Shown here piece by piece: positions 22,916-48,186 of a stretch of DNA of 51,510 nucleotides. How positions within the stretch are numbered: the first letter of the stretch is position 1; each line of letters starts with the position of its first letter. The translations under genes and the position numbers were made by a program. The notes beneath the pieces are model-generated. The model was not told the origin of the DNA. It was given only the letters and a program-made list of their open reading frames with translations, and did no database searches. Origin of the DNA: Paludibacteraceae bacterium (GTDB taxonomy: Bacteria > Bacteroidota > Bacteroidia > Bacteroidales > Paludibacteraceae); contig JAFTHS010000047.1 in NCBI GenBank assembly GCA_017457295.1, positions 1 through 51,510 on the forward strand, in the 5' to 3' direction.

Positions 22916-25837
22916 TTAGCGAACCAATCTACCCGACACATCATACATATCGCCGTTGGACATTATAAGATATAGCGACTGGTTGATCAATGCTTTGCGG
23001 ACGGAAGGTTTAGCCATTTCTACATTCTCCACAGCAGTCGTTTCACAAAGCGTTGTGATTTGTTCAGTACACTTGATAGACCCCTTGTTATTACCCGTAT
23101 AGAGTCCCTGATTGGTATATTTCAAATCGGCTGTTTGATTGCCCGAACCGTCATTCCAAATAATCATCCAATTATCATTGACAGCAGGAGCATCTACTGG
23201 TATAGCAAAACGATATACGTTGTCATACAAGCGCGTAGCAGACTTACCTGGCCATGCACCACAAATTTCGGTAGTACTACCATCTTCGAACCATATGTAG
23301 CAATTTATATTGCTACCAAAATCGCTAGACTTTGTAAAGAACACTACACGCTCGTCAGCAGAATTCAAACACATTTCCGAAGGTTGTGGAGTATCTGGAT
23401 TGCTTGGGTTGTTTGGTGTACTAGGCGTCTCGCCAGTATCACCGCCCTCGCACAACGTAGTTACAAGGCTTTGATAACCATCTTTGCTGTACAATCCGCG
23501 CATTTGGAACTTCAAATCGGCTGTTTGCTTGCCACTGTTATTGTTGTTCCAAATGATTTGCCAATCCGAGCCACTAACATCCACATTCTCAGGAATCAGA
23601 TACTTGAAAGTACCGCCCCCAAGATGTTCAGCACGTTGTCCTGGCCATCCTGCGATATTGCCATTACTATTCCACATATACACTGCAACCGAAGTGCCCC
23701 AGTCTTTTTCTCCTTTAAAGAACACGGCACGCTCGCTTGCTGATGCCAAACATGGCTCTACTGGCTCGCCCCAATCGGTATTACCACTTTGACCAAAGCG
23801 GTCATCCAATTCTTCTTCTGTGCCGTCCCAACTTGGATAACTACCAGAGTTCTTTACACCATCATAGATATATTTGCCGTCTACGCCTACCTTACCAGGC
23901 GCTTTGGTTTTGCTCGTACTCAGTACATACACACGCAAATTGCCCTTGCCTGAGCAAGAAACGCTGAGAGTACGATTATTCACAGTTTTAGTATCACCCG
24001 TCACACAGTCCACATAAGTTCCGTTCTCAATGCCGGAGAAAGTAGCATTACCAGAGATACATACCAACGCATATGAATCGGTAGTAGCATCGGTATATCG
24101 ACGTTTGAAAGCAAACGAGCCAGAACAACCATCAGTAGAATATTGTCCCTTGCGCAATGCAGGCACAGCCATACGAATCTTAGCGAGGCGTTGGATATGC
24201 AATGCAAGCGGATGATTCAGTGTTTGTGCGATATTGCCTGAAGCATTGCTATATTCGGCAAAATCGGTCACATTAATATCACCTTTGATATAGCCACCAT
24301 AGTACGCACGACCTGTCTCTTTCAATGCGATATTTGGCCCTTTATCAATCACACAACCTTTCTTGAATTGAATCTCCGAGCCGTAATATACACAGGGAAT
24401 ACCGCGGAAGGTAAATATCAATGCCAAGTTCTCCGCCCAAACGTCCTCACTTTGGTCAAAACGCGTGCCCTCTGGTGCACCGTCAGGAGCATAGTCGTGA
24501 GAATCCACATAGGTTACATTCCAAGTTGCATCATTGTAGTATTTGTCGCCATATTTCACCCCAAACGCTTCGCTTGCAGTCCGAAAGTTCCAGTGCATTG
24601 GGAAGTCAATCACACTGAGCTGCGAATTTTTGCTATAGTCTGGAGTATGATACGTATTACCATTCAAAAAGGCATTATTAGAATTTGGCAATGATTGATC
24701 ATCCATATCATCTTTACCTTGTTGATCAGTAGAGCTGATGTTGGTATGATTACCTTTTTGACCTTCCATCACAACAATATTATTCCACGAAGTCTCACTA
24801 GTATCCCACGCATAATCTTTGCTTTCTTTCCATGTGTAGTAGAATGGCGAGCAGTTCTCATGGTTGCGATATACCACATTACGTTCACGCGCGCAGACTT
24901 CTGCATACATAAAGAAATCGCCACCATTACGTTTGGCCTTGTATTGCTCTGCTAGGGCTTCAAATTGAGGAATAAAACTCTTATTAAAGGTCAAACGAGA
25001 GATATGACCACCTGTGTCAATACGAAAGCCGTCCACACCCATCGCAATAAACTTGCCATAGCACTCTACAAGGTAATTAGACACAGCGGGATTTTCTGTG
25101 TTCAAATCCACGCAATCGCCTGCAATTTGTCCATACCAACGAGAATAATCATCCCAATTCCACTCATTGCCAACATGGTGCCAATAGTTGTTCTTATCAT
25201 GGTTTTTTCCGTCGGTATTTTTCATCTCCGCCAAGCGTTTTGCATATTGTTCACCACCTGCCAAGGAAAGATAGTTATCAGGCAGTTTGCCGCCATCTTT
25301 TTGGGTATACGGAATCATACATGCATCAATATCGCTTTGGTCTGCCTCCCAATCGCGGGTAAAGAGTTTACACAGATTTTCCTCGCCGAAGTTACCTGTG
25401 TGATTGAGCACGATATCCAAGATTATCTTCATGCCCTTTGCGTGCGCTGCATCAATCAGGTCTTGAAATTTCACATCCTCGCTCTCATAGCGCTTATCCA
25501 CTTCCGAGAAGTTGCGAGCATGATAGCCGTGGTAGTCATAGCCAGAAGCATTCTCCACCACAGGAGTAATCCATACAGCTGTAAAACCGAGTGCCTTGAT
25601 GTAGTCCAGTTTCTCAATCAAGCCCTTGAAGTCGCCACGCCATGCAGGGTCGCCTACGTTGTAGTTTTGCGCGTCCCAACATTGGGTGTCGTTACTTGGA
25701 TCACCATTGTAGAAACGGGTGGTCATCACAAAATAGATTTGCTCATCGCGGAAATCCGTGCGACTAGGGAACAATGTGGCAGCAATAGTGCTTATAGATA
25801 CTGCACACAAAGACAGAACAAAGAAAAACTTCTTCAT
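22916..25837 (-). CDS. Secreted GH13 alpha-amylase with two CBM26-like modules and sorting tail
   Basis: The 973-residue product has a signal peptide (1–20) and a GH13 barrel. Barrel motifs are GYDYHGYHARNF (about 99–110), DIVLNH, the nucleophile Asp274 in DGFRID, the acid/base Glu313 in YAEVCARE, and a third acid in VDSHD. Two starch-binding modules of CBM26 type follow, at about 690–800 and 825–925, each with W-P-G and a QTADL-K motif. The last 30 residues (SLYLIMSNGDMYDVSGRLVR) belong to the C-terminal tail family shared by several proteins here. It probably digests starch at the cell surface. It lies 41 bases downstream of sufB without a clear promoter. Confidence 0.93.
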   Translation of the reverse strand: MKKFFFVLSLCAVSISTIAATLFPSRTDFRDEQIYFVMTTRFYNGDPSNDTQCWDAQNYNVGDPAWRGDFKGLIEKLDYIKALGFTAVWITPVVENASGYDYHGYHARNFSEVDKRYESEDVKFQDLIDAAHAKGMKIILDIVLNHTGNFGEENLCKLFTRDWEADQSDIDACMIPYTQKDGGKLPDNYLSLAGGEQYAKRLAEMKNTDGKNHDKNNYWHHVGNEWNWDDYSRWYGQIAGDCVDLNTENPAVSNYLVECYGKFIAMGVDGFRIDTGGHISRLTFNKSFIPQFEALAEQYKAKRNGGDFFMYAEVCARERNVVYRNHENCSPFYYTWKESKDYAWDTSETSWNNIVVMEGQKGNHTNISSTDQQGKDDMDDQSLPNSNNAFLNGNTYHTPDYSKNSQLSVIDFPMHWNFRTASEAFGVKYGDKYYNDATWNVTYVDSHDYAPDGAPEGTRFDQSEDVWAENLALIFTFRGIPCVYYGSEIQFKKGCVIDKGPNIALKETGRAYYGGYIKGDINVTDFAEYSNASGNIAQTLNHPLALHIQRLAKIRMAVPALRKGQYSTDGCSGSFAFKRRYTDATTDSYALVCISGNATFSGIENGTYVDCVTGDTKTVNNRTLSVSCSGKGNLRVYVLSTSKTKAPGKVGVDGKYIYDGVKNSGSYPSWDGTEEELDDRFGQSGNTDWGEPVEPCLASASERAVFFKGEKDWGTSVAVYMWNSNGNIAGWPGQRAEHLGGGTFKYLIPENVDVSGSDWQIIWNNNNSGKQTADLKFQMRGLYSKDGYQSLVTTLCEGGDTGETPSTPNNPSNPDTPQPSEMCLNSADERVVFFTKSSDFGSNINCYIWFEDGSTTEICGAWPGKSATRLYDNVYRFAIPVDAPAVNDNWMIIWNDGSGNQTADLKYTNQGLYTGNNKGSIKCTEQITTLCETTAVENVEMAKPSVRKALINQSLYLIMSNGDMYDVSGRLVR

Positions 25838-28111: not shown

Positions 28112-28897
28112 ATGAAGAAATTAGCTCTTTTTGCCATTGCGTTATTGGCAAGTGCTGTATCTTTTGCTGCACTCAATCCTTTTGCTTATGGCTTGTCTTC
28201 TAAGTTGTCGGCAGACGAGACTACTCTCACCGTCAACTACTCGCTCAACGCAACTGCTACTGCAGTCAGCGTGGTTATTCTTGATGGCGAAACTGTAGTA
28301 AAAACTGTGGACTGCGCTGACAAAGGTCTCACCAAAGGCGCATACGAAGTTGAGATTCCTACGACTGATCTTCCAAAGACCAAATCCCTCACATGGAAAG
28401 TAGAGGTAAAAGGTGAATCGGTGGTAACGCCAACAATACAAAACACAAAATTCAGTTTCTATATGCCATCAAGTATAGCAGTGGATGTAGATATTGAGAG
28501 TGACAATTTTGGTCGTTGGTATGCGATAGAAGCAACAAGAAAGAGCACAAACCAAACACATACAGGATATCATACTTATGAGCCAAATAAGAATGTGCGT
28601 GCTCTTTATGCATTTGAAGCGACACTAGATCCGATTGCAAATGCAAGTGGTACCTATGGATTTACTGGTGGAGGAAACTGGGGAGCAACTGAAACTAATG
28701 TAAATGGCGATTTCCTCAACAATTGGCGTGTAACAACCAGTGGTGGTCGCGTTTTTATTGGTAAATTTCGTAAAGACCATGTAGCTGTTGTTGAAGTAAA
28801 TCCTGCTAATTTAAGTGCTAACTTTACAGACGTAATTCCAGCTGGTAAAAGAGTAGTTTCTATAAGTGCTACAGGTCGAGGAGAAAACCTAAAGTAG
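28112..28897 (+). CDS. Surface protein, N-terminal part (ends at an in-frame amber codon)
   Basis: This part is 261 codons with a signal peptide (cleavage after about SFA, residue 19) and a beta-rich N-terminal domain. It then enters a propeller-like region (FGRWYAIEATRKS, VNPANLSANFTDVIPAGKRVV). It stops at TAG (28895–28897), and the very next codon continues the same frame and domain without a break, so this and the following frame are one gene of about 1,017 codons. If the stop is real, the product is a secreted fragment without the C-terminal sorting tail. A promoter and hairpin leader lie upstream. Confidence 0.75.
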   Translation: MKKLALFAIALLASAVSFAALNPFAYGLSSKLSADETTLTVNYSLNATATAVSVVILDGETVVKTVDCADKGLTKGAYEVEIPTTDLPKTKSLTWKVEVKGESVVTPTIQNTKFSFYMPSSIAVDVDIESDNFGRWYAIEATRKSTNQTHTGYHTYEPNKNVRALYAFEATLDPIANASGTYGFTGGGNWGATETNVNGDFLNNWRVTTSGGRVFIGKFRKDHVAVVEVNPANLSANFTDVIPAGKRVVSISATGRGENLK

Positions 28898-31165
28898 GTG
28901 ATTTTAGATACAGATTTAAACATTACCGAATATGATTTAGGCGCGGCTTCTTCAGTCACAAACACAACACCTTCTCGTACATATACTCAAATGGTGGGAA
29001 GTAATAAATTAACTGTTCGTGATGATGCTACTATTACATATGATAATGCCGGAGGTGGTATTTGGCTTAATCAAAACAGAGAAGGCACTGATCTTCCTAC
29101 AATTGCACATATTACACCAGAGGGTGTTGATTATGATAATTTGAGTGCAGGTGTATCGCATGTTTATTGTAGAAATAGTGGTATTGCAATCAACCCCGCA
29201 GGTACAGAATTGGCTGTGGTAGGCGCAGGTTCTAAAACATTAACTATTTATACTATTTCAAAAGACAATATAGGAAAAATTTCCTTGACTAAGAAATATA
29301 CTATTTCAACTGCGGGTAGCAACCACACTGCTCTCTCTTACGACTATGCAGGCAATTTATATGTTGCAAACCGTTCCGCAGAAACTATTACTTTCTACGC
29401 TATGCCATACTCAGGCACCGTTGTTACTCCTTGTGCTTCTAAATATGCATTCCAATTGCAAGAAGAGGTAGTTGGCACATTCTATACTGTTACTGCTAAT
29501 GCTAATGACCCTGCTATGGGTGAAATCACTGGCAATGATGGACAATACACTGCTGGTGCAACTGCTACTCTTACTGCCGTTCCTGCAGCAGGTTATAAGT
29601 TCGTTAACTGGACTGTTGGTGAAGAAACTAAGACAGAGAACCCATTAACCCTCACCGTAAATAGCGACCTCACTGTTACTGCTAATTTCGCTGCTCTTCC
29701 ACAATACACCATCACCGCTACTGCTAATGACGCAGCAATGGGTGCTGTAGAAGGTGCAGGCAAATACTATGAAGGCCAAGAAGTTACTTTGAAAGCTATT
29801 GCTAACCAAGGTCACGAGTTCGTAGATTGGAACAATGGTGCTACCGAAGCAACTCTTACCTTTGCTGCAGAAAAAGATTCTGCAGTAGTTGCAAACTTTA
29901 AGAAACTTTCTTATACTGTTACAGCTGTTGTAAATGATGATGCAAAGGGTTCTGTAAGTGGTATTGGCACATATGAGTATGGTGCAACAGCTACTGTCGA
30001 AGCTGTTGCAGCTGATGGCTATGAACTTCTCTATTGGAGCGACCGCTCAACAGAAAACCCAAGAACCGTTACCGTAGATGGCAACAAGGTTCTAAATGCT
30101 TATTTCATCAAAAAATACGAATCAGAACCAACCTTCAAGGTGGAAAAACTTTGGGAGAACACCAACGTACCTGCTGCTACAGGCAATGGCTACCAAGCAG
30201 TTGGATGGGATGGCAAGATTTATATGCAAGATGCTGGAAACAAGAAAATCGTCACTTACGCTAGCGCAGAAGATTCTGGTACAGACTATGCTACTGGAGG
30301 TGGCGCAGGTCAACAAATTGCTGTTGACGAAGCGGGTAACTTGATCGTATTCAATGCCACATTCTATGCTGCAAGCCCTAACGCAATCCTTATCTACAAA
30401 AAAGGTAGCACCGAGGGTAAGGCAGTAAGTTTCACACTCCCTAATCCGGGGCAATGTCACTTCTTCACTGCTTCTGGTGACATCTATAGTGCAGAAGGTG
30501 GTTATGTATATTTCTACTGCCAAAATACAACAGTGGTTAACCGCGTCAAGATTACCAATGGAGCTGCAACTGCTGAAGATATTGTTGTTGATGCAGTAGG
30601 TAGTGCAATTACCACAGGTAACACTCAAAACCATGTAATGGTGGATATCTTCGGTAACTTGGCGGCACATAGTCGTTCGAATGGCGTTAGCAGCATTAAT
30701 GTACATAATAATGCGTCTTCTAAGACATTCGCAGCTACTCTTTCTGGCATCAAACTAAGCACACTTGGTGGTTGCACATTTGAGTTAGGTGGTAAAGAGT
30801 TCTGGGCATACAATGTAGGTACAACTCACTACAATAGCGAATGGAATATCTACAACATGACTGATGGTATATTCCTTTCTGATACTGTATTCTACGCTAA
30901 GAACAAAACTGACAAGAATTCAGCCGCCAACTGGCTCAACGTACAAGTGGTAGATGAGAAGACTGCTTATATCTATCAATTCTGTCCAAAGGTTGCAGTT
31001 GCAGTTTGGAAAGTAACTTGCGATACAGGTGACGAGCCAGGTACTGGCACCGCAGTTGACAACACCACCGTTGCTCCTCAAGTTCAAAAGATCATCCGCA
31101 ACGGTCAAGTACTCATCATCCGCGATGGCAAGACCTTCAACATGATGGGCCAAGAAGTACACTAA
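28898..31165 (+). CDS. Surface protein, C-terminal part with InlB-type B repeats and sorting tail
   Basis: This is the same frame as the preceding part; it begins with GTG directly after the TAG and has no signal peptide of its own. It completes the propeller-like region (SGIAINPAGTELAVVG, ALSYDYAGNLYVANRSAE). Three Divergent-InlB-B-type repeats follow at about 197–265, 268–335 and 336–403 (YTVTANANDPAMGEITG, then GYKFVNW and VTANF-type ends), then a second propeller-like region. The end, KIIRNGQVLIIRDGKTFNMM, belongs to the shared tail family. The likely role is surface adhesion or glycan binding. It is followed by a hairpin. Confidence 0.75.
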   Translation: MILDTDLNITEYDLGAASSVTNTTPSRTYTQMVGSNKLTVRDDATITYDNAGGGIWLNQNREGTDLPTIAHITPEGVDYDNLSAGVSHVYCRNSGIAINPAGTELAVVGAGSKTLTIYTISKDNIGKISLTKKYTISTAGSNHTALSYDYAGNLYVANRSAETITFYAMPYSGTVVTPCASKYAFQLQEEVVGTFYTVTANANDPAMGEITGNDGQYTAGATATLTAVPAAGYKFVNWTVGEETKTENPLTLTVNSDLTVTANFAALPQYTITATANDAAMGAVEGAGKYYEGQEVTLKAIANQGHEFVDWNNGATEATLTFAAEKDSAVVANFKKLSYTVTAVVNDDAKGSVSGIGTYEYGATATVEAVAADGYELLYWSDRSTENPRTVTVDGNKVLNAYFIKKYESEPTFKVEKLWENTNVPAATGNGYQAVGWDGKIYMQDAGNKKIVTYASAEDSGTDYATGGGAGQQIAVDEAGNLIVFNATFYAASPNAILIYKKGSTEGKAVSFTLPNPGQCHFFTASGDIYSAEGGYVYFYCQNTTVVNRVKITNGAATAEDIVVDAVGSAITTGNTQNHVMVDIFGNLAAHSRSNGVSSINVHNNASSKTFAATLSGIKLSTLGGCTFELGGKEFWAYNVGTTHYNSEWNIYNMTDGIFLSDTVFYAKNKTDKNSAANWLNVQVVDEKTAYIYQFCPKVAVAVWKVTCDTGDEPGTGTAVDNTTVAPQVQKIIRNGQVLIIRDGKTFNMMGQEVH

Positions 31166-40202: not shown

Positions 40203-43001
40203 TTATAGCGTATTTCCTAAAACATCGTAGCGGATGCCATTGCTGATAATAATGAGTCGGCCGTTCTCAAGTACTTTTTGTACATTGTGTTGCACTTTAT
40301 GATTTTCAACTGCTGTATTATCTCCCCAGAAATACACATTGTCAATAAAGAATTGCTTACCATTGCCATTGAAGAACTTAATCTGCATGAATTTGGTGAA
40401 ATCTACCGTAGGGTAAGTGGAGAATGGAATATCAAATTGGTTCCATTTTCCTGCTTGTAATCGCATGGTATAAGAGCCCTCTTTATTGGTAGGTGTGGCC
40501 AGAGATATTGGTGTGATATCAAGGAGGGCATCTTCTGCACAATATACATCCACGTGCATATTGCCAGTACGTGCCACATTGAATGCCTTATTATCGTTGA
40601 TCTCCCAGCCAAGATAATCTGTGTTAGTAAACAGATAGCATTGATCATTTGGAGCAAGATAACCCGTAGTAGCAATGGTTTGTTGTGCCCAACCACCCAT
40701 CCAGAAATAGGTAGGAGATGTATAAGCATCGCTATAGATGGAGATAACTATATTTGGATCGTGAGTTGGCGTAGGTGCCGACGCAGGACCTTTCAAGGTA
40801 GCTATATCCAAAGTGATAGTATCGGAAGCATTATCGCCCAAGTCGAAGGCGACAATCTGCAACTGAGTTTGCGTAGAAGGCAGCAGCGGTTCTACTCGGA
40901 TAGTTTTGGTAATACCAGAAGTGGCAGGAGCAGAGAGCAATAGACTATCTTGGTGATATACATGGAAGAATACTACTCCTGACTCATCGGTAGCCGAGCA
41001 ATCGAGTGTAACAGAGAAATAATCTGCCTCTTTGAGAGTAGCAGTGATATTAGTAGGAGCAATACTATCCTCAAGAGCAGAGGTACGATAGAAATAGAGA
41101 TTATCCACCGCAAAAGTGGAAAGTTCAGGATTACCATCTGAGAATTTCATTTGAAAAATAGAGGTAAGGTCGAGCCCCTTGAAGTCAGCAACAGGGATAT
41201 CAAAATGATTCCATTGTTGTCCTACTAGGTTCACAAAAACACCTTTGCCATCATCCGTAGTTAACCCAGGGCCACCATAGATAGGTGTAAGCTTCATCTT
41301 ACCATCATTTGCTGCCCAAATATCTACGTGCATATACTCCATATGTTTCACAAATATTGGAGTAGCAACTGCCCATCCAAGCCAGTTGAAAGAGGTGTAG
41401 TATGCATAATTATCTCCATCAATATTCTTTTGCTCATAGACCGTAGCATCACCCCAATTCTCTTTATAAGACCATGTTGGATTGATCTCATAAACATCCG
41501 AATAGATTGCATGTACTAGCGCTGCATCATGTGTAGGCACGGGTGCTGCAGTTTGAGGAGTGGCATAATATTTAGCAGTAGTGGCTTCTACGTTAACAGA
41601 ATTATCGGATATGTTGCCCGCTCCATCAATCGCATGAATGGTAAAATTGTATTTAGTTTCTGGTTTAAGTCCTGTAATAGTAAGTAGGTCATTATCTACT
41701 GAGAACTTGCCATTGAGACCATTAGCAGGATCAGTAACTTGGCACTGAGCCACTAGGATATTGTCGGTAGCCTTGATGCGCACTTGCGCCTTATCAAAAG
41801 AGGTAGATACGAGTTCTGCAGATTGGATAGCAGGTTTCTCTGTATCTGGAACCAGAGAACCGAAAGCTTGTATCTCATATACTTTCATGCCATATTGCGT
41901 AGAAGCACGAGTAGAGAAGAAGCGAATATAGCGTACCTCTTTGGTTTTATCAGGTTGATCGTACCAGAAGTCGGTGTGGTGCCAAATATTGGTATTTCCC
42001 ACATAGTTATACACAGTATCCCAATTTTGGTTATCTTTAGATACATCAAAATGATACAATTCAGAACATGCACCCTCGAAGTGAATAGAAATGAGGTCGA
42101 GGTTGTAGGCATTCTTGAGATCAATGATATACCATGCATCGTAGGTGCGCTCTTCGGCAGAAGTGCCTGTATTAGCATGTGCTACCCACATGGAAGCATC
42201 ATTACCATCCACCGCCTTTTCAGGAGTGTCATTGCCTTCATAACCGCTTGCAGAATGGAAATGATTGAGAGCAATATTCTCGCCTTCGTAACCAAACACG
42301 ATGAACTCAGGAGCTACAACATCATCCACATTTGCGGTAATAGTAGCTTTTCCCTTTTGCTTAGGATAGTACTTGCCATCGACTACTTCGCCTGCGCCAG
42401 CAGGTTGGATGGTATAAGTAGGCTTCACTTCCATTTGTTTGCCATTTTGGTCAGGCGCTGTGATAGCAAGGTTGACAAACTCTCCTACTCTACATACATT
42501 GTTGTCAGGAGTTACAGTGAGAGATTGTAGCACGCTGGCACCGGCCTTGTACACACGGAACTCGAAGAACGAATAACCATACCCTGTACCACGCTCTTTA
42601 CCATCGAAGCGAATGTAACGTGCAGTGGTCTCTTTGAACTCTAAAGTTTGCGTATGAGGGAAGCCACTGAGAGACTGCCCTTCGATTTCAATAATAGGTG
42701 TGAAAGCAGCATTATCTGCAGAAGCAGAGATAGTGAAGGTTTTGCCATAAGCACCTTCCCAAATGATTTGGATGGTATTGAAAGTGCGGCTTTGTCCCAT
42801 ATCTAACACCCACCATTGAGGGTCAGAGAATTCAGATTCCCAACGAGAACCTTTGTTGTCATCAATAGCTGCAGCTGCATTACCTGATGAAGCAGTAGCT
42901 GAGGAACCATTGGATGTCAATGCAAAATTGACATCGGTGTCTTGTGCACAAACAGCAATAGCACACAGACAAGCAAAAAGAGAAAGATAAAAGTGCTTCA
43001 T
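40203..43001 (-). CDS. Secreted modular protein: two discoidin-type domains, Fn3-like domains, two IYSD modules, sorting tail
   Basis: The 932-residue product has a signal peptide (1–19). It then has two F5/8-type-C (discoidin-like) carbohydrate-binding domains at about 22–152 and 242–380, with RWESEFSDPQWWVLDMG and the second ending YEIQAFG. A BIG/Fn3-type stretch follows at 387–475. Next come two IYSD modules at about 495–640 and 750–885 (IYSDVY/IYSDAY, LGWA/LGWE, MHVDI/MHVDV, IDNVYFW type), separated by an Fn3-like domain. The last 27 residues (ENGRLIIISNGIRYDVLG) are the shared tail. It has no catalytic domain, so it is a surface glycan-binding or adhesion protein. It is last in the minus-strand accessory block. 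Confidence 0.8.
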   Translation of the reverse strand: MKHFYLSLFACLCAIAVCAQDTDVNFALTSNGSSATASSGNAAAAIDDNKGSRWESEFSDPQWWVLDMGQSRTFNTIQIIWEGAYGKTFTISASADNAAFTPIIEIEGQSLSGFPHTQTLEFKETTARYIRFDGKERGTGYGYSFFEFRVYKAGASVLQSLTVTPDNNVCRVGEFVNLAITAPDQNGKQMEVKPTYTIQPAGAGEVVDGKYYPKQKGKATITANVDDVVAPEFIVFGYEGENIALNHFHSASGYEGNDTPEKAVDGNDASMWVAHANTGTSAEERTYDAWYIIDLKNAYNLDLISIHFEGACSELYHFDVSKDNQNWDTVYNYVGNTNIWHHTDFWYDQPDKTKEVRYIRFFSTRASTQYGMKVYEIQAFGSLVPDTEKPAIQSAELVSTSFDKAQVRIKATDNILVAQCQVTDPANGLNGKFSVDNDLLTITGLKPETKYNFTIHAIDGAGNISDNSVNVEATTAKYYATPQTAAPVPTHDAALVHAIYSDVYEINPTWSYKENWGDATVYEQKNIDGDNYAYYTSFNWLGWAVATPIFVKHMEYMHVDIWAANDGKMKLTPIYGGPGLTTDDGKGVFVNLVGQQWNHFDIPVADFKGLDLTSIFQMKFSDGNPELSTFAVDNLYFYRTSALEDSIAPTNITATLKEADYFSVTLDCSATDESGVVFFHVYHQDSLLLSAPATSGITKTIRVEPLLPSTQTQLQIVAFDLGDNASDTITLDIATLKGPASAPTPTHDPNIVISIYSDAYTSPTYFWMGGWAQQTIATTGYLAPNDQCYLFTNTDYLGWEINDNKAFNVARTGNMHVDVYCAEDALLDITPISLATPTNKEGSYTMRLQAGKWNQFDIPFSTYPTVDFTKFMQIKFFNGNGKQFFIDNVYFWGDNTAVENHKVQHNVQKVLENGRLIIISNGIRYDVLGNTL

Positions 43002-43050
43002 GATTGTAAAATTTTAGAGTTGTGTAATATTGTCTTGGATTATTTAGGAA

Positions 43051-43077
43051 GTTAGGGAGGGAGCCACCCTCCCTAAC
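43051..43077 (-). terminator. Hairpin upstream of the 932-residue gene (twin of 44714–44742)
   Basis: Arms GTTAGGGAGGG (43051–43061) and CCCTCCCTAAC (43067–43077) pair perfectly. It has no T run. Almost the same hairpin follows the next gene upstream, so both genes end in a copied 3' structure. Confidence 0.7.
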
Positions 43078-43089
43078 CAAGGGAATAGG

Positions 43090-44655
43090 TTAGCGTACTA
43101 CGCTACCAGTGATGTCATATTTCACGCCATCGCGGATGATGATGAGTTGGCCGTTCTCAATCTTTTTGGTAGCATGTTTCTCAACGGTGATGTTCTCTAC
43201 GCCAGTACCTTCACCATAGAAATATACATTATCAATGTAGCAAGTAGAAGGCATAGAATCCCACTTTATTTGGATGATATTTGCCAAATTGATACCTACA
43301 AACTCTGTAACGAGGTCAATATCAATAGCATTCCAACCTGCTTGCAAAGCATATTCCTTCAATGCCTCACCACCCCATATAGGAGTAAACTTGATGGATG
43401 CTGCTTCAGCCACATAGATATCGAGGTGCAGTTTTGGATATGCGGTCATGTCGCCGATAGTACTACTACTATTGAACTCCCAGCCGAGGTAGTTACACTT
43501 GGTGTAATAGAACGCCTTGTCACCTTCAGCGAGCTGTACCTCTTCCTCTTTGGTGGATTGTCCCCAACCGCCAGTAACGCGAGTAACGGTAGATGTGTAA
43601 ACATCGGAGTAGATAGAGAATACTTGTGCAGAATCGCGAGTAGGAGCAGGTGCTGCCTCTGGGTGGTCTACTTGAGGAGGAGCAACCGCAGCTCCTACAT
43701 CTTTGATAGATATTTCGCTGATAGTAATTTGGCAAGGGCCAGCCAAACCGAAGTCAAATACAAGAATTTGGTTGTTGCCTTCGATACCATTGCCTGGTGC
43801 TGATACATATGTGTAATCAGCATTAGCAGGCAAATTGATTTGATTATCATATACTGGTGCCACATTATCGTCCATCTTCACGGTAACACCACCGATAGCA
43901 GCGGTAGCATGGAACTTAGCAGAGAAGACATATTGCTTTGCAGGGTCGAAAACGACATTGTGTTTGATTTTTACTTGACCTTGCCATTGACCCAAAAGTT
44001 GGCTCTTGATGTCCACGCTGACAGTGCCAGTGGCAGGGTTGTAAGTTGCAGAGCTGACGCCATCGGGTGTCCAGTTAGGTGCGATATAATAGCTATCAAG
44101 GGAGGCAGCAGCAGGGTCAAAAAGTTCAGTACCCTCTACAGATTGTTGCTCTACCTCATGTACGGTGATTTCACTGATAGTGATTTGGCAAGGAGGAGCC
44201 CAGCCAAAGTCAAAGACAAGTACTTGATCAGTACCAGCTATGCCATTGACGGGATCAGAAGTATATACATAATCCTCGTTGGCAGGCAAATTGACTTGAT
44301 TGTCATAAACCAATGCAGGGTCGCTATTGTCCATCTTGATGGTGACGCCACCAACAGCAGCCGTAGCGTGAAACTTAATAGACAAGGCATACTGCTTTGC
44401 AGAATCGAAAACCATATTGTGTTTTAGTTTTACTTGTGCTTGCCATTGGCCATAGAATTGGCTTTTGAGGTCCACAGAGAGGGTACCAGTAGTAGCATTG
44501 TAGGTAGCAGAACTGTTGGTTTCTTGTTGCCAGTTAGGAGCGAAATAGGTGCCGCCTTCAGGAATGTAGGCAGATGCAGGGTCAAACAAATTGGTTTGAG
44601 CCATGGCGCTGATTGCGAATAACGCAATAGCGAAAAGAGAAAAGATCTTTTTCAT
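43090..44655 (-). CDS. Secreted protein with duplicated carbohydrate-binding-like domain, IYSD module and sorting tail
   Basis: The 521-residue product has a signal peptide (1–19). Two beta-sandwich domains of about 150 residues follow, at about 21–170 and 175–325, and they are clear copies of each other. Both carry LFDPA, a W-Q-x-Q-V-K-[LI]-K-H-N segment and CQITISEI, and resemble CBM4/9-type domains. Then comes one IYSD module (about 345–485: FSIYSDVY, YLGWEF, LHLDIYV, YIDNVYFYG) and the tail IENGQLIIIRDGVKYDITG. No catalytic residues are visible. It is probably a surface glycan-binding protein. Confidence 0.8.
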   Translation of the reverse strand: MKKIFSLFAIALFAISAMAQTNLFDPASAYIPEGGTYFAPNWQQETNSSATYNATTGTLSVDLKSQFYGQWQAQVKLKHNMVFDSAKQYALSIKFHATAAVGGVTIKMDNSDPALVYDNQVNLPANEDYVYTSDPVNGIAGTDQVLVFDFGWAPPCQITISEITVHEVEQQSVEGTELFDPAAASLDSYYIAPNWTPDGVSSATYNPATGTVSVDIKSQLLGQWQGQVKIKHNVVFDPAKQYVFSAKFHATAAIGGVTVKMDDNVAPVYDNQINLPANADYTYVSAPGNGIEGNNQILVFDFGLAGPCQITISEISIKDVGAAVAPPQVDHPEAAPAPTRDSAQVFSIYSDVYTSTVTRVTGGWGQSTKEEEVQLAEGDKAFYYTKCNYLGWEFNSSSTIGDMTAYPKLHLDIYVAEAASIKFTPIWGGEALKEYALQAGWNAIDIDLVTEFVGINLANIIQIKWDSMPSTCYIDNVYFYGEGTGVENITVEKHATKKIENGQLIIIRDGVKYDITGSVVR

Positions 44656-44713
44656 ACGCGTAATGATTTAATGGTTAATAATTATATATAGCCAAACTTT
44701 GTTTGGATTAGAG

Positions 44714-44742
44714 GGTTAGGGAGGGAGTCACCCTCCCTAACC
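44714..44742 (-). terminator. Hairpin upstream of the 521-residue gene's 5' end (twin of 43051–43077)
   Basis: Arms GGTTAGGGAGGG (44714–44725) and CCCTCCCTAACC (44731–44742) pair perfectly around AGTCA-type loop bases. It lies just after the stop of the gene at 44754–47123 on the minus strand, as the twin does for the next gene. Confidence 0.7.
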
Positions 44743-44753
44743 TAATAAATGAA

Positions 44754-47123
44754 TTAGCGTACTACACGACCCATAACGTCGTATGTAACACCATTGTAAA
44801 TAATGTACAATGCGCCATTACGGATAGTCTTTTGGATTTGTACAGAATTGAGAGTATTCTCTACGTTAGTAGTAGGACCATCTGGTTCTGTTGTTTCTTC
44901 GCAAGTTGTACCATAGAGGTAAGCATCGAATACATATTTCGACCAGTCATCGACATGGATAGATGATTTTGCCTCAATTTGACCAGAGTAGCTGATGACT
45001 GCACCTGGCAATGGTTTATTAGCTGCATCTTTGAGAGTCAAAGTGTATGTATAATCATCTGTTTTAACTCTATCAAAATAAGCAATAAAGTTATCTTTTG
45101 AGCCATCCAATAGGAAATCTCCACCCATAGCATTATTACGGAACATAGTAGCATTCTCATCACCTTCGGAAGCACTAATCGTAATAACTACATTGCCAGT
45201 AGCATCAGTAATCCATGAGAATAAAGGATTGCAAGAACCTTGATTTTCTGTTATACGGTCAGCTGGTGCTTCGCAATAGTTAGATATCGGAAGTGGAGAA
45301 GCTGCCACATTCCATGTGACACCATCTGATTCAAGAGAGTCATCTTTATCAATAGCTTTAGCAACAACCTTAACAGTATATTCACCTGCTACGTATGCTT
45401 CAAAATTGATTGTACCGCCATTGGTAATTTCTTGTGTGTATTTCAAAGTAACACCTTGATATACACGCACCTCGTATGATGTAGCATCAAGAACTTCATC
45501 GAAAGTAACAACACCAGCATCGGTAACTGCCACATTAGAAGGAGCCTCTAATTTGTTGCAAACACCGCCATAGGTATAGATGAAATCTGGAAAACAATAT
45601 TCATCATTTCCATTTACCGTCCAAGCAAGCGCATGACCTGAACCAATGTGCATAATTTTAGCACCCTTTTCCAAATCTGCTATATTCACGAGACGTGCTT
45701 CGTTACCAGAAAATACTTTCTCAAATGTAAAGTAATCGGAAGCAGGGGTAGTAGTAACAAAGTTGTCTGTACTAACAACAAAAGCCTCGATGCCACCCTC
45801 GAAACCACCATTACGGTAAGAGCAAGACTCTGTACCAATGCCATTATCCATAGTAATAACTACATCGCCATTGTCAGCAGTTTCCCAAGTAAGAGCAATA
45901 GCTGCACCGTTTTTGGTAAGTAGTTCGTTAGTATAGTAACAGTATTCAGTAACAATCAAATCGCCTGTTTCGCCGCCTTCGCCTGGGGTCTCGCCTGTTG
46001 TGCCATCCGCATAATATACCCAGAAAGTGCAAGAGCCTAATCCGTGGGTAATAGTTACTTCTGTTTCTTTGGCTGTAAATGAAGATAGATAAAGAATCAT
46101 ACCTGCGCCATCAATCTTTCCATTAACAGTACAATCAGAAATACCTGCTGGAGCTGTTATATAGATACCTTTTTCTGCAGCCCAAGGTGGTTGTTGTACA
46201 TTTACAACACTAGACAAACACTCGTGTGATACTTTATACTTATTATCTGAAGCTTCAACCCAATCCACATTAGCCCATTTGTCAGTTACTTCAGGATCTT
46301 CTGGATCTGGAGTTGGCTCTGGTTCTTCACCGCCTTCGCCAGGAGTGTCACCGCCTTCGCCGCCACCTTCGGTGCCGTCAGCATAATATACCCAGAAAGT
46401 GCAAGAGCCTAATCCGTGGGTAATAGTTACCTCTGTTTCTTTGGCGGTAAATGAAGATAGATAAAGAATCATACCTGCGCCATCAATTGCACCATTCACA
46501 CTACACTCAGAGATGCCAGCAGGAACTGTAACATAAATACCCTTTTCATTAGCCCATCCAGGTTGTTGAACGTTTATAACAGCAGTTAAACAATCACTAT
46601 AAACTTTGAATTTATTATCGGAAGCAGCGACCCAATCAATAGATTCCCAATCAATTGTGCCATCTTCTGGTTCTTCTGGGTCTGGAGTTGGTTCTGGTTC
46701 TTCGCCACCTTCACCTGTGCCTGGGTCTGGGGTTTCGCCAGTTGTGCCATCTGCATAATATACCCAGAAGTTGCAAGAACCGCCGGCATAGTTAATGGTT
46801 ACAGCTGTTTCTTGAGCGGTAAATGCAGAGAGATGAAGTGCAATACCTGCACCTTGAATAGCGCTAGAAACATTGCAATCTAAAATACCAGCAGGAACTG
46901 TCACATAAATACTTGGTTCTGTAGTAAAACTTGGTTGCTGGATATTAACAACACTCAAACCTTCGGCAGCAGATACTTTGTATTTATTACTATAAGCACC
47001 TCCACCTGCACCATCGCCGAGAAAATCATATGTACTCCAATCCACGCCAGAAGCTGCGGAGAGGTTCAATGCACCAAATAGCATGGCTATTAGTGCGAAC
47101 GATTTTAGAAAATGTTTTTTCAT
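44754..47123 (-). CDS. Secreted protein with three 124-residue tandem repeats, Fn3-like domain and sorting tail
   Basis: The 789-residue product has a signal peptide almost the same as that of the next gene (MKKHFLKS-AL...LSAA). Three copies of a beta-rich domain follow, joined by acidic Pro-rich linkers (EPEPTPDPE). Each copy has a VxNVQQP core and ends CxFWVYYADG. At DNA level the copies repeat every 372 bases. Then there are a domain with TEYCYYTNELLTKNG, an Fn3-like domain near APSNVAVTDAGVVTF, a C-terminal beta domain, and the tail IRNGALYIIYNGVTYDVMG. No enzyme motif is seen; adhesion or glycan binding is likely. Confidence 0.78.
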   Translation of the reverse strand: MKKHFLKSFALIAMLFGALNLSAASGVDWSTYDFLGDGAGGGAYSNKYKVSAAEGLSVVNIQQPSFTTEPSIYVTVPAGILDCNVSSAIQGAGIALHLSAFTAQETAVTINYAGGSCNFWVYYADGTTGETPDPGTGEGGEEPEPTPDPEEPEDGTIDWESIDWVAASDNKFKVYSDCLTAVINVQQPGWANEKGIYVTVPAGISECSVNGAIDGAGMILYLSSFTAKETEVTITHGLGSCTFWVYYADGTEGGGEGGDTPGEGGEEPEPTPDPEDPEVTDKWANVDWVEASDNKYKVSHECLSSVVNVQQPPWAAEKGIYITAPAGISDCTVNGKIDGAGMILYLSSFTAKETEVTITHGLGSCTFWVYYADGTTGETPGEGGETGDLIVTEYCYYTNELLTKNGAAIALTWETADNGDVVITMDNGIGTESCSYRNGGFEGGIEAFVVSTDNFVTTTPASDYFTFEKVFSGNEARLVNIADLEKGAKIMHIGSGHALAWTVNGNDEYCFPDFIYTYGGVCNKLEAPSNVAVTDAGVVTFDEVLDATSYEVRVYQGVTLKYTQEITNGGTINFEAYVAGEYTVKVVAKAIDKDDSLESDGVTWNVAASPLPISNYCEAPADRITENQGSCNPLFSWITDATGNVVITISASEGDENATMFRNNAMGGDFLLDGSKDNFIAYFDRVKTDDYTYTLTLKDAANKPLPGAVISYSGQIEAKSSIHVDDWSKYVFDAYLYGTTCEETTEPDGPTTNVENTLNSVQIQKTIRNGALYIIYNGVTYDVMGRVVR

Positions 47124-47126
47124 AAC
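46011..47126. repeat. 372-bp in-gene tandem triplication
   Basis: The block beginning ATAATATACC recurs at 46011, 46383 and 46755, exactly 372 bases apart. The first two copies are nearly identical over about 90 bases; the third is more diverged. Each codes for one 124-residue domain plus linker. Confidence 0.88.
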
Positions 47127-47138
47127 CGTAATAATTTA

Positions 47139-47174
47139 AAAGTTAATAATAAAGTTAATAATAAAGTTAATATT
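47139..47174. repeat. 12-bp repeat ×3 in the leader of the 789-residue gene
   Basis: AAAGTTAATAAT at 47139 and 47151 and AAAGTTAATATT at 47163, directly upstream (minus strand) of the start at 47123. Confidence 0.8.
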
Positions 47175-47208
47175 GTTGTTTTGAGTTTTGCTTTGTAAGG
47201 AATCATGC

Positions 47209-48186
47209 TTATTTAATCTGCATACCCAGAGCATTGTAGCGGATACCATTAGAGATGATAATCATCTGACCGTTCTCAATGAGCTTTTTAGCAGCGGTAT
47301 TGGTAACTACATTATCAATATCGGTTGTTTCGCAATTTTCACCAACAGTATAAGAAACACGCTCTGTAAAGAGAACTTTACCAGCTTCAAGTGCCACTTT
47401 CACTAAGAAGACCAATTGCTCTCCATTAGCTAAACCAGTAAGGGTATGGGTAGCTGTGCGCGTGGTAGCATCCCAACCTGCCATTTGGATATCACCACCC
47501 ATCATCACACCATTTTGGTCGAAACGGAAAAGATATGGCGATGCCATACCAGGGAGATTGTCTAGGAATTGTACCGTGATATTCACACCAGCAGTAGTGG
47601 TCTGAACTTGCCAATAGAATCCTTTCTCGAGCGAAGTGATAGCATGATTAGGATCGGCCTCGGTATAGTAGGTATCAACTCCCTTTGCCGTACCAGAACA
47701 TGCACCTTCTTGAAGATCTTCTGGAGTATCAGGAGTATCTGGTGTATCTGGATTATCAGGTGTATCTGGGGTATCAAAACCATCGCATACTTGCGAGAAG
47801 TCGGCATCGATAGGTAACTTGAACCATGCTTCGCCATCTTCGTATTGCACGAAGAAATCACCAGCATAGATAGTAGGCGCTACATTGGACTCAATAATCA
47901 CCGATAAAGTGTCGCCGTTTTGCGTAAGATTTTTAGATGCATGGTAGCCACCTACTCCATTCACATTCATGAAGAAGTTGGAACCATCGTTGTACTTAAC
48001 GAAAGCATCCGTGGATACAAAAACAAATTGATACCGATTGCCGCCCAATGAAGAGCAGGTAATCTGTGCTGTGTGGACTGCCTGCGTGCTTGTGATAAGC
48101 GCATCGCAATAGGTGGCAGCAGAGAGGGTTGTTGCACTAAAGAACAACGCGAGTAGTGCAATCGATTTGAGGAAATGCTTTTTCAT
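47209..48186 (-). CDS. Secreted protein with DTP linker and sorting tail
   Basis: The 325-residue product has a signal peptide (1–23). An N-terminal beta domain follows (about 25–138), then a linker of repeated D-T-P (TPDTPDNPDTPDTPDTP). The second domain (about 160–280) has the segment GFYWQVQTTTAGVNITVQFL. The tail is IENGQMIIISNGIRYNALG. Its signal peptide matches that of the 789-residue neighbour, so the two genes probably arose by duplication with later swaps of domains. Function unknown. Confidence 0.75.
   Translation of the reverse strand: MKKHFLKSIALLALFFSATTLSAATYCDALITSTQAVHTAQITCSSLGGNRYQFVFVSTDAFVKYNDGSNFFMNVNGVGGYHASKNLTQNGDTLSVIIESNVAPTIYAGDFFVQYEDGEAWFKLPIDADFSQVCDGFDTPDTPDNPDTPDTPDTPEDLQEGACSGTAKGVDTYYTEADPNHAITSLEKGFYWQVQTTTAGVNITVQFLDNLPGMASPYLFRFDQNGVMMGGDIQMAGWDATTRTATHTLTGLANGEQLVFLVKVALEAGKVLFTERVSYTVGENCETTDIDNVVTNTAAKKLIENGQMIIISNGIRYNALGMQIK

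Follow-up and report, generated by a model that had tools for sequence, protein, structure and literature searches.

What is the function of the short C-terminal tail that is shared by six putatively secreted proteins of otherwise different kinds? The six proteins are encoded within 51,510 nucleotides of DNA (positions 1-51,510 of contig JAFTHS010000047.1 from Paludibacteraceae bacterium GCA_017457295.1), referred to here as the window, which is contig C45 of the 2.19 Mb source genome. A preliminary description of the window had grouped the tails into one family, and rightly so: all six proteins are present (Table 1), seven columns are invariant when their last 45 residues are aligned, and a profile built from these residues matches each of them. 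It had also suggested that the tail may be a short signal for secretion or anchoring, with a likeness to the G-r-v part of type IX sorting domains, a view that holds in silico. With a probability of roughly 0.87, the tail is a miniature sorting signal of the type IX secretion system (T9SS), in which a flexible T-x-V-x-N linker precedes a beta-meander predicted to have three strands. The support computed here comes from its position, the signal peptides of its carriers, the co-occurrence of T9SS genes, the replacement of classical C-terminal domains (CTDs), the swapping of cargo between the two signals, and the predicted fold. The uncultured gut bacteria concerned seem to have exchanged a T9SS label of 70-80 residues for one of about 38 residues on dozens of secreted proteins per genome. 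No literature on such tails in Paludibacteraceae was found among the papers listed by searches of open-access PMC.

When the profile of the six window tails was run against the source genome, as the preliminary description had advised, 65 places matched at E ≤ 1, the window tails among them. We followed 61 of these, the weakest being C46:743 (E 0.28), and dropped C30 (E 0.06, internal stops), C109:46049, C119:24548 and C54:3220 (the last three with E 0.40-0.52). In each of the 61 the match ended 0-7 residues from the stop codon. Fifty-eight tails were aligned, leaving aside C36:44877, C38:21649 and C46:743. K28 and G49 were invariant and I38 occurred in 56, followed by T8 and G33 (49 each), Q34 (48), Y45 (48, with F in nine others) and N12 (38). 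The consensus consists of a linker, T-[AGSND]-[VIL]-[ED]-N and then about 8-10 residues, and a core, K-[IV]-[IL]-x-[ND]-G-Q-L-x-I-[IL]-[RK]-[ND]-G-x-x-Y-[ND]-x-x-G-x-x-[VI]-[KR]. T-x-[VILF] was recognisable in 52 tails, and in 29 of the 52 it was followed by 37 or 38 residues after the T, so that the signal is longer than the ~25 residues first assigned to it. The pattern proposed earlier, [IL]-x-N-G-x-[LM]-x-[IL]-I-x-[ND]-G-x-x-[YF]-[DN]-x-x-G, describes four of the six window tails; it fails for the amylase (NQS for NG) and for the amber-split protein (V at the [LM] position), and, taken strictly, it is found in only 6 of the 61 genome tails.

The open reading frames (ORFs) bearing tails were examined for signal peptides by a home-made test that does not tell signal peptides and membrane segments apart. 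After exclusion of four ORFs clipped by a contig end, 50 of 57 were positive, compared with 10 of 26 non-tail ORFs of the window used as control. Cargo domains were scanned in 30 of the 55 tail ORFs outside the window (several of them 5'-clipped by the fetched stretch), together with seven window ORFs. Among the domains found were BspA-type leucine-rich repeats (LRR), alpha-amylase with CBM26, Amidase_3, Endonuclease I, NAGPA, purple acid phosphatase, Omp28, F5/8 type C and InlB repeats; many of the scanned ORFs had no Pfam domain at all.

The fold of the tail was predicted by AlphaFold2 (56 of the 61 tails). The model is a three-stranded beta-meander with strands at residues 18-23, 26-31 and 34-36 and turns at N24-G25 and D32-G33, the T-x-V-x-N stretch lying within an unstructured linker. 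The predicted local distance difference test score was 91-94 in the core, with a mean of 85.7 for the model, and the predicted template modelling score was 0.50. A PEP-CTERM-like exosortase signal consists of a transmembrane helix followed by basic residues. The tail is not of this kind, having three predicted beta strands in place of a helix and no long hydrophobic stretch in the columns of the 58 aligned tails.

We then compared the tail with the known T9SS signals. None of the 58 tails matched the type A models (PF18962, TIGR04183) or the type B models (TIGR04131, PF13585) at E ≤ 1, nor any of the secretion models of Pfam and NCBIfam. Several features of a type A CTD were nevertheless found. 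All 61 tails lie within seven residues of the stop, at the extreme C-terminus of proteins that mostly carry a signal peptide, and SprA, PorV and PorU are encoded in the source genome. The tail also has a counterpart of motif B (Y-D-x-x-G-x-x-V): in the 58 tails the Y position holds Y 48 times and F nine times, the next one N or D 49 times, and the G is always present. This stretch is collinear when the two profiles are aligned, the profile made from 40 classical CTDs running parallel to the tail over PNP...L.I...Y..G..v, which covers motifs A and B. The score against the A-B part was 16.7, as high as in none of 80 column permutations; that against the D-E part was 10.8, reached by 9 of 80 and hence not above chance. 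The idea, taken from topology, that the tail corresponds to motifs D-E, as in HBP35, was unsupported by the profile test. The seven-stranded immunoglobulin-like sandwich of a type A CTD was not predicted either, the tail having three strands. In short, the tail behaves like a T9SS signal, yet it departs from the type A CTD in model matches, in fold and in motifs D-E.

The preliminary description had suggested looking for co-occurrence with T9SS genes, and this was found. PorU was present in 58 of the 61 sampled genomes of the genus, including all 26 of good quality, and both SprA and PorV were present in the four genus genomes examined for them. Classical CTDs (PF18962) numbered 361 in the 61 genus genomes (median 4; median 5 in the 28 that are at least 90% complete), against 3,647 tails, while the other 57 genomes of the family, all at least 88% complete, had a median of 36 (range 4-75). 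The source genome has nine classical CTDs, one of them inside PorU. Tail and classical CTD counts were inversely related, both in the 28 genomes (Spearman rho -0.61, p 5e-4) and in the full set of 61 (rho -0.37, p 0.004), although these correlations count related genomes as independent. In G360 (99% complete), 62 tails occur together with SprA and PorV, and PF18962 has no match. The tail could instead belong to a different, undescribed sorting or anchoring system, with its own protease or transpeptidase, whose cargo was taken from the T9SS. The failure of the known secretion models, the lack of motifs D-E and the nine tails of G332, a genome of another genus with no SprA match, would fit such a system. 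Had the cargo left the T9SS, however, decay of the machinery would be expected, and the retention of PorU across the genus and of SprA and PorV in G360 counts against it, as does the resemblance of the motif-B-like end and the predicted fold to T9SS CTDs; we consider this explanation improbable.

The genus PorVs, that of the source genome included, were the most divergent of 34 family PorVs and had seven signature substitutions in common, but as the sample was biased (the 30 comparators were the family's best-scoring) and the random control was unmatched for relatedness, no conclusion on co-evolution was drawn.

The same cargo was found with either label. A search of 61 family genomes with the tailed endonuclease I gave matches in 33, and the best-match locus was read in 30. 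The tail stood at the end of all four genus copies and of none of the 26 others (best match per genome). By eye, 18 of these 26 ended in a type A CTD, four ran off the fetched stretch and four had other ends, one of which (L235) showed weak ASH/Cep192-like domain matches at its C-terminal end. PF18962 matched 14 of the 18 at E ≤ 0.001 (seven over the cut-off) and two at 0.006-0.008; of the remaining two, one had a match at 0.14 and the other was unsupported. Within the genus, 18 classical-CTD proteins of two tail-poor species were compared with the tail proteins of the source genome (8 of the 23 PF18962 matches of G274 and 10 of the 18 of G257). Five of them were full-length relatives of three tail proteins, in pairs spanning 727-984 aa: C116:1502 with L267 (49% over 981 aa) and L278 (46% over 984), C116:4615 with L271 (45% over 737) and L276 (36% over 727), and C116:71554 with L272 (39% over 773). 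In all five pairs the similarity ended at the signal: past that point one partner had a type A CTD of 69-81 residues and its counterpart a tail of 25-48 residues. For the remaining 13 proteins the matches were partial or at the level of a domain, or there were none. A small beta-meander belonging to no recognised family might also be a structural or ligand-binding C-terminal module with no role in sorting. This is very improbable, given that the cargo is so unrelated (LRR, alpha-amylase, amidase, endonuclease, phosphatase), that all 61 followed tails are terminal, and that, on one and the same cargo, the tail stands where relatives have a type A CTD.

Tails were found in all 61 sampled genus genomes, at 3-112 each and 3,647 in total; these counts are lower bounds, as candidates exceeded those scored in a few genomes. 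Outside the genus, 18 of the 57 genomes of the family had 1-12 tails. In the order, where no more than 29 candidates were scored in any genome, 8 of 247 genomes had any tail: this genus contributed two of them, a different genus of the family one, and the remaining five came from outside the family. Single tails were observed in these five genomes, which represent four other families (L068, L069, L070, L071, L073); they lie within eight residues of the stop and indicate that the signal is not strictly confined to Paludibacteraceae. Among named genomes, 183 relatives were found, and the 80 that were kept all carried titles of Paludibacteraceae or Bacteroidales; by our own count, 43 of the 80 titles name a ruminant as host (deer, sheep, goat, cattle, buffalo, yak). 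A signal peptide was found in 64 of the 68 named loci with a complete 5' end. At one locus, L075 (G223:C17:98375-98497), a 78-residue ORF has short tandem repeats of one peptide unit before the tail. Chance resemblance or an assembly artefact, for which only the metagenome-assembly origin speaks, is hardly credible when the tail recurs in 61 of 61 genus genomes and all 80 named loci place the match within five residues of the stop.

Several observations weigh against a T9SS signal. Seven of the 57 tail ORFs were negative in the signal-peptide test: the downstream half of the amber-split protein (the peptide is on the upstream half), two stub ORFs, three whose starts are odd, and one whose hydrophobic start has no basic residue. 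Motifs D (GxY) and E (basic) are absent, the proteins ending a few residues past the motif-B-like stretch, whereas D and E are reported in a review to be jointly sufficient for secretion, the lysines of E being required (PMC10202324). The whole-CTD profile score, 16.4, was reached by 1 of 150 permutations, and in profile the tail is only weakly similar to type A CTDs; at an HH-suite probability of 7-33%, homology between the two is suggested but not proven. In the order scan, tails occurred in 8 of 229 genomes with PorU and 0 of 18 without, numbers that do not separate T9SS-plus from T9SS-minus genomes. PorU was not matched in 3 of the 61 genus genomes (83, 77 and 59% complete). G332 (96% complete) has 13 classical CTDs and PorV besides its tails, with no match to SprA, and G302 (this genus, 90% complete) has PorU, yet only three tails and four classical CTDs. 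Four of the 26 non-genus endonucleases I (L235, L242, L246, L255) carry neither signal. The preliminary description had itself named two cases that would speak against its view, namely tails on intracellular proteins and genomes with many tails but neither type IX machinery nor another sorting system. Neither was encountered: the tails are mainly on signal-peptide proteins, and tail-rich genomes retain T9SS genes.

Reading the tail as a miniature T9SS signal, we infer from the sequences that the tail proteins are secreted, and the following course is proposed. The Sec signal peptide would lead the protein to the periplasm, where the small sheet, with its tight N-G and [ND]-G turns, would fold. 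The translocon SprA and the shuttle PorV would recognise the folded tail, and PorU would cut within the flexible linker, close to T/[AGSND]-[VIL]-[ED]-N, after which the protein would be joined to surface polysaccharide or released. Cutting after the T is suggested by the linker, which reads [PT]-T-[AGSND]-[VIL], compared with the PT/GI site described for Prevotella intermedia (PMC11969387). Given its likeness to the A-B half of a type A CTD, the tail may be a shortened form of this domain that functions in the absence of motifs D and E. At odds slightly better than even, it represents a new class of T9SS signal, a half-size CTD with motifs A-B only that replaced most type A CTDs genus-wide, while translocon, shuttle and sortase were kept, possibly with an adapted PorV. 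The cargo swap, the genus-wide replacement and the match to the A-B half without D-E go beyond the preliminary description. If the T9SS reading is true, the system needs to read only a three-stranded sheet of about 25 residues and a short linker, and the pairs found in nature, where one cargo bears either label, make the signal question directly testable.

The coordinates of the window proteins, their tails and the T9SS components are collected in Table 1.

Table 1. Tailed proteins of the window and T9SS components of the source genome.
Feature	Position	Strand	Details
Putative secreted protein, 932 aa	40203..43001	-	Signal peptide; two F5/8 type C domains and weak Fn3; short tail
Tail of 932-aa protein	40206..40337	-	Last 44 residues
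Putative secreted protein, 521 aa	43090..44655	-	Signal peptide; no Pfam domain over cut-off; short tail
Tail of 521-aa protein	43093..43224	-	Last 44 residues; query of the AlphaFold2 model
Putative secreted protein, 789 aa	44754..47123	-	Signal peptide; no Pfam domain over cut-off; short tail
Tail of 789-aa protein	44757..44888	-	Last 44 residues
Putative secreted protein, 325 aa	47209..48186	-	Signal peptide; no Pfam match; short tail
Tail of 325-aa protein	47212..47343	-	Last 44 residues
Putative secreted alpha-amylase, 973 aa	22916..25837	-	Signal peptide; PF00128 and CBM26; divergent short tail
Tail of alpha-amylase	22919..23050	-	Last 44 residues; NQS instead of NG
Amber-split protein, upstream half	28112..28897	+	Signal peptide; terminates at TAG 28895-28897
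Amber-split protein, downstream half, 755 aa	28898..31165	+	InlB B-repeat domains PF18998; short tail at end
Tail of amber-split downstream half	31031..31162	+	Last 44 residues
PorU, source genome	C37:9358-12663		Over NCBIfam cut-off
PorV, source genome	C37:12838-13941 (L221:3839-4942)		Over NCBIfam cut-off
SprA, source genome	C119:8236-15510		Over NCBIfam cut-off

Some tail genes are interrupted or reduced. The gene at 28112-31165 is otherwise open, a single in-frame TAG (28895-28897) dividing the signal-peptide half from the tail half; because the reading frame continues unchanged across this codon, the split does not resemble a frameshift. At L023:712-771 (G000:C135) a tail ORF likewise follows a TAG, preceded in frame by a hydrophobic, signal-peptide-like stretch for which no start codon was seen. 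Amber recoding was considered as the cause of the split genes, but no such claim is made, since the codon preceding the ORF varies (TAG in the window gene, L023 and L045, TGA in L052, TAA in L025) and the upstream frames of all of these except the window gene hold further stops. A 43-residue ORF consisting of the tail alone (G000:C116:43744-43872; L025:1950-2078) lies about 330 bases past another tail gene and looks like a gene remnant.

Finally, the tail was set beside the known systems. With the type A CTD (PF18962, TIGR04183) it shares the C-terminal position on the same cargo in related species, a motif-B-like Y-[DN]-x-x-G-x-x-[VI] and the occurrence with SprA, PorV and PorU; the type A CTD differs in its usual 70-80 residues, about twice the length of the tail, in having seven strands against three, and in possessing motifs D (GxY) and E. 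The type B CTD (TIGR04131, PF13585), according to PMC12618676 an alternative T9SS signal with its own shuttles, is far longer, at 150-235 residues, and its models do not match the tails. The last 22 residues of HBP35, described in the review PMC10202324 as motifs D + E and as sufficient for T9SS secretion of green fluorescent protein, are a very short C-terminal stretch too, but they hold D and E, unlike the tails. The short CTDs of P. intermedia come closest. According to PMC11969387, these contain motifs B, D and E, have a length of 43-55 residues counted from the cleavage site (first set: 40-51), and are predicted to form one three-stranded sheet that binds PorV as the long CTDs do; short and long CTDs are preferentially cut at PT/GI, and the species is, per its authors, the only one reported with both lengths. 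What is shared is T9SS-type cargo with a signal peptide, a sub-classical length, a predicted single three-stranded sheet, a genome with short and long signals, and a PT/GI site close to the tails' [PT]-T-[AG]-[VI]. The tails differ in having mostly 37-38 residues after the T at which the cut would fall, and in comprising the A-B half without D-E, the comparison being with the short CTDs as described in that paper.

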